Shown here piece by piece: positions 11,751 to 21,178 of a stretch of 22,930 nt of DNA. Source of the stretch: a virus. The notes below the pieces were generated by a model, which was not told where the DNA came from, searched no databases, and saw nothing but the letters and a program-made list of their open reading frames with translations. Positions within the stretch are counted from its first letter, which is position 1, and each line of letters starts with the position of its first letter. The stretch covers positions 1 through 22,930 of the IMG/VR virus record IMGVR_UViG_3300038701_002259; one strand, written 5' to 3'. The position numbers were made by a program, and so were the translations under genes.

Positions 11751-11786
11751 GAACCCGTCCGTCTGGGGGATCGGGCGGGTTATTGT

Positions 11787-12047
11787 TTAGCCAGAGCCGG
11801 AGCCATAGCCAGAGCCAGAGCCATAGCCATAGCCGGAGCCATAGCCATAGCCAGAGCCATAGCCATAGCCATCGCCAGAGCCATAGCCATAGCCAGAGCC
11901 ATAGCCATCGCCAGAGCCATAGCCATAGCCGGAGCCATCGCCAGAGCCAGAGCCATCGCCAGAGCCATCGCCAGAGCCATAGCCAGAGCCATAGCCATTC
12001 TCTTCGAAAGTTTCCGGTGCGAGTTTGATCACATTAGGAAGGCTCAT
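11787..12047 (-). CDS. Gly-Tyr/Gly-Ser/Gly-Asp dipeptide repeat protein
   Basis: After a 17-residue N-terminus (MSLPNVIKLAPETFEEN) the 86-aa product is 34 uninterrupted dipeptides of Gly plus Tyr (14), Ser (15) or Asp (5), ending in Gly. The DNA is a tandem array of hexamers of the form GGC-TCT/TAT/GAT, with occasional TCC, so glycine is always GGC. ATG 12047 has GGAG nine bases upstream; a TTG at 12062 would add five residues. It overlaps the preceding gene by 14 bp, so translation is probably coupled. Such a sequence should be disordered or phase-separating, but function is unknown. Both other frames of the array are long and open, and only this one has a real N-terminus. Confidence 0.8.
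   Translation of the reverse strand: MSLPNVIKLAPETFEENGYGSGYGSGDGSGDGSGSGDGSGYGYGSGDGYGSGYGYGSGDGYGYGSGYGYGSGYGYGSGSGYGSGSG
11790..11996 (-). repeat. Tandem hexanucleotide array
   Basis: About 34 hexamers vary only in the second codon (TCT, TCC, TAT or GAT after GGC). The array is in frame throughout, so gain or loss of a unit keeps the reading frame. The higher-order pattern Tyr-Tyr-Ser recurs several times toward the 3' end, which suggests growth by slippage or unequal exchange. Confidence 0.85.
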
Positions 12048-12414
12048 ATTCAGGCGCTCCAAGGATGGACTGACCAGCAGCAGCGGTCGTTGGCAGAATT
12101 TCGCAGGCGTCGAGAATGCAGATTTCCGCCACTTCGCCTGCGATCTTGCTGCCGGAAGGGGCGATGCCGTGAAGCGCCACGCCGCTCAGAGTGTGTCCTT
12201 TCGCGGCTTTCCAATGCCAGAGACGGCGCGATCCGGTAAGGCGAACGGTGCGGTCATGAACCGAAACCAGCGTACCGGCGTGAACGCCGCTATCGCGGCT
12301 GCGGATGATAACAAATTGCCCGATCATTTGCGCCGCCGGGTGGTCGGTCGGGGTCGGCGCGGGTGCGTCATCGCGCAGCAATTCCAAAAGTGTCGTCAGC
12401 TTTTCAATGTTCAT
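12034..12414 (-). CDS. DUF6948-like phage protein
   Basis: The 126-aa protein has a leucine-rich N-terminal helix, then a core with SGVHAGTLVS, RRLWHWKAAKG and LHGIAPSGSKI. These resemble the conserved strands of the DUF6948 family of small phage proteins; function is not known. ATG 12414 is chosen because GGAAGGAAAG precedes it; the longer frame has no such signal. It overlaps the Gly-Tyr repeat gene, whose start lies inside its last codons, so the two are probably made together. The family call is from memory of the motif pattern and should be checked by profile search. Confidence 0.75.
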   Translation of the reverse strand: MNIEKLTTLLELLRDDAPAPTPTDHPAAQMIGQFVIIRSRDSGVHAGTLVSVHDRTVRLTGSRRLWHWKAAKGHTLSGVALHGIAPSGSKIAGEVAEICILDACEILPTTAAAGQSILGAPEYEPS

Positions 12415-19057: not shown

Positions 19058-19302
19058 GGGTGCCCACTTCCCCAAAGCCAGCGGTGGCTCCGGTCCATTT
19101 CACAGCCGTGGCAGAGCTTTGCGTCATTGCCACCATCAAGGGCATTGCCGCAGGTGATGCACTTGCGCTTCTTCGCGTAGAAATAGGAGTCTGTGCTGGT
19201 TATGAGAAAGCACGGCTTATACTTCCCGGTCAGCCCGGATTCCTCGATGGCGTTGCCACACGCTTCTTGCGTAGCAAAGCGTTGATTGGTCAAACTGCTC
19301 AT
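19054..19302 (-). CDS. Zinc-finger protein, 82 aa
   Basis: Four cysteines in two pairs (KCITCGNAL, Cys48 and Cys51; LCHGCEMDRS, Cys64 and Cys67) form a zinc ribbon. The N-terminal half has no cysteine pair and looks like a small alpha-beta module. ATG 19302 overlaps the preceding 51-aa gene as ATGA and follows a GGGGGG run that may act as a ribosome-binding site. Second gene of the leftward operon. A role in DNA or RNA binding is likely, but no target can be named. Confidence 0.75.
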   Translation of the reverse strand: MSSLTNQRFATQEACGNAIEESGLTGKYKPCFLITSTDSYFYAKKRKCITCGNALDGGNDAKLCHGCEMDRSHRWLWGSGHP

Positions 19303-19454
19303 GCCGCCCCCCGTTCGCCAATGGTGCGATCAACCGGCGCCGTCAGTCGGCCAGGGCAGGCTTCATCACAGGCCCGCATGTGTTCGAGCAAGATCCGCGC
19401 GAAGGTCGCTTCTGCGGCGGCGCGCTCGGTGTCATTCAGTGGTTTCTTGTCCAT
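19299..19454 (-). CDS. First gene of the leftward early operon, 51 aa
   Basis: This small gene is found from its ATGA overlap with the zinc-finger gene. It starts at ATG 19454, gives MDKKPLNDTERAAAEATFAR followed by a helix with two cysteines (HMRACDEACPGRL) and ends GERGAA. No family recognised. It has only a weak GGGA ribosome-binding site, and a very stable hairpin sits immediately upstream of the start, so its translation may be regulated. Its position next to the early promoter is that of lambda N, but it is not arginine-rich enough to call it an antiterminator. Confidence 0.6.
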   Translation of the reverse strand: MDKKPLNDTERAAAEATFARILLEHMRACDEACPGRLTAPVDRTIGERGAA

Positions 19455-19462
19455 TCCCGTAT

Positions 19463-19494
19463 CGGGGCGGGCCGTTTGCTGCGGCCCCGCCCCG
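19463..19494 (-). promoter_or_regulatory. Stable leader hairpin of the leftward operon
   Basis: CGGGGCGGGCCG at 19463-19474 pairs with CGGCCCCGCCCCG at 19482-19494 (one bulged base) across a 7-nt loop. In the leftward transcript this lies 8 bases before the first start codon. No T-run follows. It could control translation of the first gene or act as a recognition site for antitermination; neither is shown. Confidence 0.55.
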
Positions 19495-19532
19495 CCTCTC
19501 CGTGAGTGTGGTCGGTAGGGTGGACAATATCA

Positions 19533-19546
19533 GGGACAATCGTCCC
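19533..19546. promoter_or_regulatory. Operator-like dyad OL1
   Basis: GGGACAATCGTCCC has 5-bp arms (GGGAC/GTCCC) around four bases. The same dyad recurs at 19562-19575 and twice before the cro-like gene, which is the pattern expected of repressor operators at both early promoters. It lies between a TTTACG (19553-19548) and a GATATT (19532-19527) read leftward that might be -35 and -10, though with short 15-bp spacing. Confidence 0.7.
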
Positions 19547-19561
19547 CGTAAAGAGTAAAGT

Positions 19562-19575
19562 GGGACTAATGTCCC
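19562..19575. promoter_or_regulatory. Operator-like dyad OL2
   Basis: GGGACTAATGTCCC has the same arms as OL1 with a different centre. It is 29 bp from OL1 and upstream of the leftward operon. Confidence 0.7.
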
Positions 19576-19630
19576 CTGTTGAGCCGGAAAGCGGCGTTGA
19601 GCCTTGATCCTTTGGAAAAATTACGCTTGG

Positions 19631-19807
19631 TTAGTCAGGCGTTCTTGATCTGATGATGTAGGAAAAAACGATAAGGCTGCCGAGCCCGTGCAGAATCATC
19701 AAGGACGTGTCTCGGAGTTCTGCGCCTGCGCTCAGCGCGGCGAAGGCGCCGAGAAGTGATGTTGCGGCGAATGCGAATGAAATCAAAGAGGCTGCAATTC
19801 TGTGCAT
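19631..19807 (-). CDS. Two-helix membrane protein in the lysogeny region, 58 aa
   Basis: ATG 19807 opens a frame giving MHRIAASLISFAFAATSLLG, continuing hydrophobic to about residue 28, then LRDTSLMILHGLGSLIVFSY as a second membrane segment, and ending IIRSRTPD before TAA. A weak GGA precedes the start. It lies downstream of the repressor on the same strand, where phages often keep lysogeny-expressed genes such as superinfection-exclusion proteins; this role is an inference. A frame on the same strand from 19862 to 19635 gives a basic, non-membrane product and looks like a shadow. Confidence 0.6.
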   Translation of the reverse strand: MHRIAASLISFAFAATSLLGAFAALSAGAELRDTSLMILHGLGSLIVFSYIIRSRTPD

Positions 19808-19869
19808 GTGGTGGGGTCCATTTAGAGAGGTGTGAGGGGAATAGTATTATGAAACCCACCATTGGGCGA

Positions 19870-19914
19870 GTGACCAGAGGCGAAATTGTAAGGCTCGCCT
19901 TACGGCTAGGTCAC
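19870..19914. repeat. Nested inverted repeats after the repressor gene
   Basis: GTAAGGCTCGCCTTAC (19888-19903) is a palindrome with 7-bp arms. Around it GTGACC (19870-19875) pairs with GGTCAC (19909-19914). The structure starts 17 bp past the repressor stop. On the repressor strand the inner hairpin is followed by AATTT, so it may be a weak terminator. A protein-binding site is the alternative. Confidence 0.5.
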
Positions 19915-19930
19915 CGAGACCTGACAAGAA

Positions 19931-20515
19931 TCAATCGCGCGATGGGCGTTTCTTGCTTTGGTCGACGAGAAACAGAAGGTGAGACATCAGCGCTTTCTGA
20001 TCGTCTTCGGAAAGGCGATCAAATCCGCGAAGCAAATCTAAGGCCAGATCAGCCTTCGGGCTCCGGGCCAGATCCATAATCGTCGCGGACGTGAACCCAA
20101 TCGCCGCAGAAATCATTTCAGCTTCGTGAACGCTGATTGCTTCGACTTCGCCGGACAGGAATTGCGCAATCGCTCCGCTCGGAAGCCTGGCTCCGTGTGC
20201 AAGGCTGCGCTCTGAAACCCGGTTGTCTGATGACATTATCTGAGCAAGGCCCGCCCGAAACTCTTGAGATTGTTGCTTTGAAAGAAGCTTCTGCCCTTCT
20301 GGCAAAAATGTCATGACCTGCTCGATCGTCATGCCCAACACTGACGACAGCTTTGCCGCGTCTTCTACGTTTGTGGATGCGTTCGACCGCTGTTTCAGTT
20401 TTTTTAGCTGTTCGTAGGAAACGCCCGACAACTCCGCCACCCTGCGAAGTGGCAAGCCCTCCCTGTCCAGGGCAGCAAAGAACGCTGTTCGAAATGTTCC
20501 AGTCACGCTGAACAT
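19931..20515 (-). CDS. Phage repressor-like protein without peptidase domain
   Basis: The 194-aa protein begins with an XRE-type helix-turn-helix at about 10-65 (LPLRRVAELSGVSYEQLKKL). A second HTH-like segment lies at about 98-150 (SERSLAHGARLPSGAIAQFL), and a helical tail ends DQSKKRPSRD. There is no LexA/S24 Ala-Gly cleavage site or Ser-Lys dyad. Its position, divergent from a cro-like gene with operator dyads between them, marks it as the lysogeny repressor. ATG 20515 is chosen because the longer frame would run through the promoter and operators; no good ribosome-binding site precedes it. Without self-cleavage, induction would need another mechanism. Confidence 0.8.
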   Translation of the reverse strand: MFSVTGTFRTAFFAALDREGLPLRRVAELSGVSYEQLKKLKQRSNASTNVEDAAKLSSVLGMTIEQVMTFLPEGQKLLSKQQSQEFRAGLAQIMSSDNRVSERSLAHGARLPSGAIAQFLSGEVEAISVHEAEMISAAIGFTSATIMDLARSPKADLALDLLRGFDRLSEDDQKALMSHLLFLVDQSKKRPSRD

Positions 20516-20542
20516 TCTATTTTCAACGAAGCAAGGGGCAAG

Positions 20543-20556
20543 GCGACAATCGTCCC
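20543..20556. promoter_or_regulatory. Operator-like dyad OR1
   Basis: GCGACAATCGTCCC matches the OL1 dyad with one mismatch (second base). It directly precedes the -35 box of the rightward promoter. Together with OR2 it forms a 13-bp perfect inverted repeat (20545-20557 with 20567-20579) around a 9-bp spacer. Confidence 0.7.
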
Positions 20557-20587
20557 TTGACAAATGAGGGACGATTGTCCCTATATG
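20557..20587 (+). promoter_or_regulatory. Rightward early promoter
   Basis: A perfect -35 box TTGACA (20557-20562) is followed after 19 bp by TATATG (20582-20587). The OR2 dyad fills the spacer, so bound repressor would block RNA polymerase. The transcript would start at or within a few bases of the cro-like ATG at 20593. Confidence 0.65.
20568..20581. promoter_or_regulatory. Operator-like dyad OR2
   Basis: GGGACGATTGTCCC is a perfect GGGAC/GTCCC dyad between the -35 and -10 elements of the rightward promoter. Its centre is 25 bp from that of OR1. Confidence 0.75.
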
Positions 20588-20592
20588 TTGCC

Positions 20593-20841
20593 ATGGCAAA
20601 GACAGAACTCCTTTCATCCTTCTTGCTGGAGGTCGAGGCTTACGCTTTTGCGTGTGGCCTCGCCCCCGCTACGGTGACGAGCCGCGCGGTCAGCAACAGC
20701 CGCTTGTATTCCCGCCTCAAAGACGGCGGGGATGCTTCCACTGAGACGATCGAGCGCGTGCGCGACTTCATGGCTCAGAACCCCCCCGAGTCCAGAGACG
20801 GAGGGAAAGGCGATGACCTTTCACAGTGCCCCGCTGCATAG
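20593..20841 (+). CDS. Cro-like small DNA-binding protein, leaderless
   Basis: The 82-aa protein starts MAKTELLSSFLLEVEAYAFA and has a helix-turn-helix-like core ending SNSRLYSRLKDGGDASTETI. The last 20 residues are polar and probably flexible. An in-frame TTG at 20557 is part of the -35 box and cannot be the start. There is no ribosome-binding site before ATG 20593, and the predicted transcript starts there, so the mRNA is probably leaderless. As first gene of the rightward operon opposite the repressor, it occupies the place of Cro. Its DNA-binding role is inferred from position and motif. Confidence 0.75.
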   Translation: MAKTELLSSFLLEVEAYAFACGLAPATVTSRAVSNSRLYSRLKDGGDASTETIERVRDFMAQNPPESRDGGKGDDLSQCPAA

Positions 20842-21178
20842 CTGCCGGCCCCGTGACATCCGTTTTGCCATGGCAAGCTTCCGCAAGGCTGCGGAAAAAG
20901 TCGGCACCCGCGAACAGCGCGCTTTGTATGCCCGCCTGCGCGACGGCAAGTTTGTAGCTGACTGCCTGTTCATCGCCTATGACGCGCCGACGCAGCACCA
21001 GCGCTGCCTGATCGCGTCCCGTCATCTTGGGGTGAACCCGGAAACGGTCCGGCGCTGGATCGAGGGCGCAACGTCGCCATCCATGAAAGACTTTTGGCCG
21101 GTGATCATGCGCGTTGTGGAGTCGCGCGCACCGGCGGATCTTTATCCCGATCTGGTCCAGCTTCTTTTGGAGGTGTGA
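20813..21178 (+). CDS. HTH regulator in the CII position, 121 aa
   Basis: ATG 20813 lies inside the end of the cro-like gene and has GGAGGGAAAGG upstream. The protein has a helix-turn-helix at about 65-85 (IASRHLGVNPETVRRWIEG), after an N-terminal helical part (MASFRKAAEKVGTREQRALY). Downstream helices end LVQLLLEV. As the second gene of the rightward operon it occupies the place of lambda CII, but sequence similarity to CII is not evident. It may regulate the switch or early transcription. Confidence 0.75.
   Translation: MTFHSAPLHSCRPRDIRFAMASFRKAAEKVGTREQRALYARLRDGKFVADCLFIAYDAPTQHQRCLIASRHLGVNPETVRRWIEGATSPSMKDFWPVIMRVVESRAPADLYPDLVQLLLEV

Follow-up and report, generated by a model that had tools for sequence, protein, structure and literature searches.

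The window, by which we mean the entire stretch of DNA analysed here, comes from IMG/VR as a linear fragment of 22,930 bases. It contains divergent genes for a CI-like repressor and a small Cro-like protein, each with a predicted helix-turn-helix (HTH) fold, and shared dyads at both early promoters that overlap the predicted promoter boxes (Table 1). The repressor matches Pfam HTH_26 (1.1e-7) and, in two separate stretches, PHROG 4583 (8.5e-7). Its AlphaFold model consists of a head formed by residues 1-70, most of it at pLDDT >90, and a helical tail that is less certain; the fold of the head matches those of DdrO, SinR, and P22 c2 at Z ~9.5-10. An ATG at 20515 was considered as the start of this gene. 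That codon was ruled out by the family alignment and by the 36-nt spacing to OR2, both of which favour the GTG at 20506, since only with this start does the window fit the family and the distance to OR2 become exactly 36.

The gene that the sequence-only reading had called cro-like encodes a diverged, small HTH-like protein. The Pfam scan returned no match for it, and PHROG 7669, to which it is similar, is a family of unknown function. The model of this protein contains four helices in an HTH-like arrangement (pLDDT 80), a fold that is only suggestive because the best PDB matches are weak (Z ~5-6). A small protein is found at the same position in 66 relatives and could be aligned in each of the 50 that were included in an alignment. 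Downstream of the Cro-like gene are a D5-like regulator and replication initiators. On the other side of the region, the 51-aa ORF that is the candidate first gene of the leftward operon belongs to no Pfam or PHROG family, and a GC-rich hairpin with a mildly unusual folding energy (z -1.4) lies between PL and this ORF (19451-19525, minus strand). Elsewhere in the window, an ORF on the minus strand (11780-12062) consists of glycine-tyrosine-serine simple repeats.

Table 1. Genes, predicted promoters, and putative operators of the region, in order of window position.
Feature	Position	Strand	Remarks
First candidate gene of leftward operon	19299-19454	-	ORF, 51 aa
Predicted PL	19524-19552	-	-35 TTTACG (19552-19547), spacer 17, -10 TATTGT (19529-19524)
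OL1, inner OL operator	19533-19546		GGGACAATCGTCCC; exact dyad; within the -35/-10 spacer of predicted PL
OL2, outer OL operator	19562-19575		GGGACTAATGTCCC; exact dyad
Hydrophobic ORF	19631-19807	-	58 aa; occupies the variable repressor-OL slot (where lambda has rexAB)
Repressor (CI-like)	19931-20506	-	191 aa from GTG; XRE head 1-72; second HTH possible at ~98-150; no S24
Predicted PRM	20514-20541	-	TTGCCC-16-TAGAAT (promoter scan); -10 ends 7 nt ahead of GTG
OR2	20543-20556		GCGACAATCGTCCC; base 2 of the repressor-side half-site is damaged
Predicted PR	20557-20587	+	-35 TTGACA (20557-20562) adjoins OR2; -10 TATATG (20582-20587)
OR1	20568-20581		GGGACGATTGTCCC; exact dyad; within the -35/-10 spacer of predicted PR
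Cro-like gene	20593-20841	+	82 aa; ATG 5 nt past predicted PR -10; PHROG 7669 (6.6e-5)

Exact copies of GGGAC-N4-GTCCC occur three times in the window, at 19533, 19562, and 20568, compared with an expectation of 0.04 (300 simulations of the dinucleotide make-up of the window, maximum 1), while the dyad at 20543 departs from this pattern by a single mismatch. No further exact or one-mismatch copy exists in the record, and all remaining sites have two mismatches and are present in numbers at the chance level. Thus, the four shared operators proposed earlier are real as sites, although only three of them are exact; a search of the window for the 14-mer confined them to the two early promoters, in the two pairs that had been described. 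OR1 and OR2 together form the perfect 13-bp inverted repeat that had also been noted, with arms at 20545-20557 and 20567-20579 and with a TTGACA whose first T is the final base of the left arm.

When a weight matrix trained solely on the sites of relatives was run on the window, it placed exactly these four dyads at the top of its ranking, with scores of 21.3, 17.1, 17.1, and 8.2, against a best score per simulated window (n = 30) that averaged 8.3 and reached a maximum of 15.2. By this comparison, three dyads are significant from sequence alone, and the fourth (20543) is significant because its position is conserved in 66 relatives. The low score of the fourth site, no higher than that of the best chance match per window when taken by itself, is the one observation that would fit an origin of the dyads as chance repeats or as products of promoter composition. 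The excess of exact copies and the conservation of both position and class in the relatives make such an origin hardly credible. An exact 14-mer scan of viral contigs included unrelated hits among the matches listed. A different palindrome, TTGCCATGGCAA, which is perfect over 12 bp, occurs twice in the window, at 20588-20599 across the Cro-like start codon and at 20865-20876; it was not seen at the Cro start of relatives and for this reason was not taken as an operator.

Relatives were gathered by scans with the repressor and with an alignment of the repressor, and by genome searches, which yielded 84 distinct ORFs with the repressor head, including that of the window. Nearly all of the named genomes are from Rhodobacterales, one being labelled Nocardioides marinus. 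Tandem 14-bp dyads are present at a fixed OR position in 67 of the 84 loci, i.e., in the window and 66 relatives. The end of OR2 is 36 or 37 nt from the repressor start in 64 of these 67 loci and OR1 lies 24 or 25 bp beyond OR2 in 63, a narrowness that is partly built in, as the anchored scan covered only starts 34-39 nt away; the peak was again at 36/37 nt and 24/25 bp when the upstream region was searched without an anchor. The Cro-like ATG is 10-14 nt past OR1 in every locus (67/67), in a search that favoured starts near 11 nt, where a start is uncommon by chance. Within 3 kb beyond the repressor, 49 of the 67 loci contain an OL pair of the same class as their own OR sites (1.5% in a shuffled control), with a spacing of 27-30 bp that is 28 or 29 bp in 46 of the 49. 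This recurrence of same-class tandem OR and OL sites in tens of related loci supports both the pairing of dyads at each early promoter and the clean CI/Cro-type switch that the sequence-only reading had described.

The mismatch at 20543 is a family trait, because base 2 of the repressor-side half-site of OR2 is not G in 50/67 loci, while the other three half-sites retain G in 65-66; the damage perhaps makes OR2 weaker or accommodates PRM. The window has two sites at OR and no third. Many relatives (L141, L147, L154, and others) do have a third dyad, OR3-like, which is located immediately ahead of the repressor start and overlaps the PRM -10. The slot separating the repressor from OL ranges from 26 to 2310 nt in relatives and has unrelated contents, among them GGDEF, RelA/SpoT-like, AAA, and CBS genes, RelE with an HTH, and defence candidates. 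The Rhodobacter phages RcDormio (L205) and RcKemmy (L206) encode a relative of the Cro-like protein with no recognisable partner repressor nearby, and in Rhodobacter capsulatus phages such as RcDormio no tandem GGGA-type operators were seen beside that gene. Phages of Mesorhizobium, Ruegeria, and Komagataeibacter whose repressors show distant similarity were inspected as well, and none had a clear tandem site of this kind. Several open frames of ~850-1000 aa (L225, L229-L232, L234, L236, L249, and L250) also contain a distant relative of the repressor head.

The predicted promoters are positioned consistently across the family. On the Cro strand, TTG follows immediately 3' of OR2 in ~61/67 loci, and an AT-rich -10 element immediately 3' of OR1. 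At the OL of relatives, TTGAC[A/G] adjoins the inner site and an AT-rich -10 lies beyond it. From these flanking elements, OR1 and the inner OL site would each be located between a predicted -35 and -10 box. The PL boxes of the window agree in position with the TTGACA/TTGACG and -10 elements of relatives, its -35 box being weaker than theirs, and the predicted PR has a spacer of 18-19 bp. An AT-rich PRM -10 is likewise found at the matching place in relatives, ending ~5-7 nt ahead of the repressor start. This short distance, together with the presence of an SD-like motif in only 1/67 repressor leaders, leads to the prediction of a leaderless repressor mRNA, and both OR-side transcripts, those of the repressor and the Cro-like gene, are probably leaderless as judged from these features. 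In contrast, GGAGG is frequent in the PL leaders of relatives. The centre of OR2 is 43.5 bp upstream of the first codon of the window repressor. The OR2 of lambda is centred at about -42 with respect to PRM, and this similarity of placement suggests that OR2 might mediate activation of PRM.

The same positions bear on whether the 13-bp repeat (20545-20579) and the OL dyad function instead as RNA hairpins of a terminator or attenuator, an idea that derives from a terminator scan in which 20545-20579 and 19575-19562 were flagged. The 13-bp repeat, however, is located upstream of the start predicted for PR and contains the PR -35 box, the dyads have no real T-run, each 14-mer is palindromic by itself, as are those of the 66 relatives, and changes in operator class follow the DNA-reading helix of the repressor. 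Position and conservation thus rule against the terminator/attenuator role, which we regard as very improbable.

The operator described by the sequence-only reading as apparently distinct represents one class, GGGA, among at least three in an operator family that includes GGGT/GGGG, TGGA and, further out, TGGC. With the recognition helix of the repressor written as V-S-x3-x4-x5-x6-x7-x8, lysine at x7 accompanies G at operator base 1 in 57/57 loci and other residues at x7 accompany T in 9/9; counted over distinct helices, the division is 16:0 and 0:9 (Fisher 5e-7). On a tree constructed without the helix columns, x7 and base 1 underwent seven parallel changes. All four independent pairs on supported branches agree with the rule, the sign test giving p = 0.125 because only four pairs are well supported. 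Of 11 loci obtained once the rule had been fixed, a sample in which L271 is a near copy of L224, 10 agree. The exception to the rule is the distant locus L281, with the helix VSRDVINK and the operator GTGCC-N4-GGCAC. A weaker rule connects lysine at x8 with A at base 4 (p = 0.004, with few independent changes). Positions x7 and x8 align with residues 32 and 33 of the 434 repressor, on the side of the helix that faces DNA, x8 being aligned with Gln33, an operator-contacting residue of 434. One repressor residue predicts one operator base in nearly every relative examined.

This rule is also the main evidence bearing on a reading in which only the Cro-like protein or some other regulator uses the dyads as operators, with the large repressor acting elsewhere. 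The Cro-like recognition helix does vary by operator class, an NSRLY type being found with most GGGA sites and a WGQW type with GGGT sites, and the window repressor may hold a second DNA-binding domain. Yet from x7 of the repressor, base 1 can be predicted almost perfectly in the different lineages, whereas Cro proteins of the NSRLY type are found with GGGA as well as TGGA operators, and we consider exclusive use by the Cro-like protein or a third regulator to be quite unlikely. The differences among Cro-like helices support sites that would be shared by both proteins, though less tightly than x7 of the repressor does. Five genomes encode two different members of the family (L152/L167, L142/L145, G503, G154, and G092), and in each of them the two operator classes differ, which is what mutual exclusion between like classes would produce, the number of such genomes being small. 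One MAG contains two identical copies of the switch.

Repressors of the family differ in what follows the head. Long relatives (~209-218 aa) contained a Peptidase_S24 domain in both of the two scanned, and in 27 aligned long relatives the AG, GxSM, and K columns that a self-cleaving repressor should have are invariant; two short relatives (~105-119 aa) that were scanned lack the domain, as does the window repressor in the Pfam scan. The window repressor may instead carry a second HTH, to which its tail shows a weak match (PHROG stretch 98-150; Pfam HTH_26 E = 0.056 with the tail alone). No internal duplication emerged when the head was compared with the tail by BLAST. A scan of viral contigs found no relative of the C-terminal 119 aa, and the second-HTH architecture was therefore not found elsewhere; phage records searched by sequence with the window repressor or a short relative gave no match. 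A bolder and rather doubtful proposal is that this temperate-phage lineage of Rhodobacterales uses one immunity chassis, with specificity readable from two repressor residues and with interchangeable tails (none, S24, or second HTH). A RecA-cleavable tail would in the window have been replaced by a second DNA-binding domain, such that induction would not proceed by SOS cleavage and the repressor might read a second site, e.g., the TTGCCATGGCAA pair at 20588/20865.

That repressor residue and operator base change together, that the geometry is fixed, and that the sites are conserved all argue that the dyads are operators. We assign a probability of roughly 90% to the reading that this region is a temperate-phage immunity region on the lambda/434 plan, with the dyads as putative repressor operators, and the four dyads very probably belong to a CI-Cro switch common to many marine and soil Rhodobacterales phages. 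In the model that follows, we infer binding, dimerisation, PRM activation, Cro competition, leaderless translation, and OL-OR cooperation. A dimer of the XRE-type repressor would bind the 14-bp operators through their GGGAC half-sites. Bound to OR1 or to the inner OL operator, it would occupy the space that separates the -35 from the -10 box of PR or PL, thereby blocking the Cro-like/replication operon and the leftward operon, respectively. At OR2, beside the weak -35 of PRM, it would aid polymerase and sustain its own synthesis, and the OL and OR sites might cooperate. Competition from the Cro-like protein for the same sites would shift the phage toward lysis.

Prophages are common in Rhodobacterales, and in the papers found, their lysis-lysogeny switches are described by gene name only. 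The kind of switch presented here is already known. What is new is the family of operators, the damaged half-site that its members conserve, the rule linking residue to base, and the exchange of repressor tails; no description of the operator family or its recognition code was found in the open-access literature searched, which is not proof of absence. A fixed operator geometry combined with the residue-to-base rule would allow prophages that are mutually immune, and those that can share a host, to be predicted from sequence, and would mark the repressor-OL slot as one in which to seek cargo expressed during lysogeny.

The switch mechanisms between lysogenic and lytic growth have been described as poorly understood for most phages in a study of Sulfitobacter (PMC9044938). 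Comparable in gene layout are the switches of Phaeobacter inhibens T5, likewise Rhodobacterales prophages, in which divergent XRE and small-HTH genes (xre-luxR-luxI / hth) are served by lysogeny and lysis promoters demonstrated with reporters; unlike the window switch, they are tied to quorum sensing, and their operators are unmentioned (PMC13345283). CI- and Cro-like genes have also been named in Paracoccus phages, again with operators unmentioned (PMC6536676). One of these, the isolated phage vB_PyeM_Pyei1 (MK291445; PMC6536676), has the same layout as the window with other half-sites (site GGGGGAANTCCCCC): a CI-like repressor, tandem sites GGGGGAACTCCCCC/AGGGGAATTCCCCC located 36 nt ahead of its likely start, and a second dyad pair, 29 bp apart, beyond the repressor. 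Its repressor differs in possessing an S24 domain and another recognition helix. As an isolated phage of this layout, it is a natural comparison for the window switch.

Among the classical systems, the window resembles phage 434 in its 14-bp dyads, in which the outer four base pairs of each half are conserved according to half-site frequencies, and differs in its half-site (GGGAC, not ACAA) and in sharing little sequence identity. The likeness to lambda extends to the divergent repressor and Cro-like genes, putative operators located between these genes and again at another early promoter on the far side of the repressor gene, an OR2-type site beside the PRM -35, a predicted leaderless repressor mRNA, and a variable gene slot between repressor and OL that corresponds to that of rex. 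The window departs from lambda in its 14-bp operators, with two sites rather than three at both OR and OL, in a Cro-like mRNA that is also predicted to be leaderless, and in different proteins, including a repressor without S24. Because it has two, not three, operators at OR, we describe the switch as working like that of lambda and do not class it as a member of the lambdoid group.
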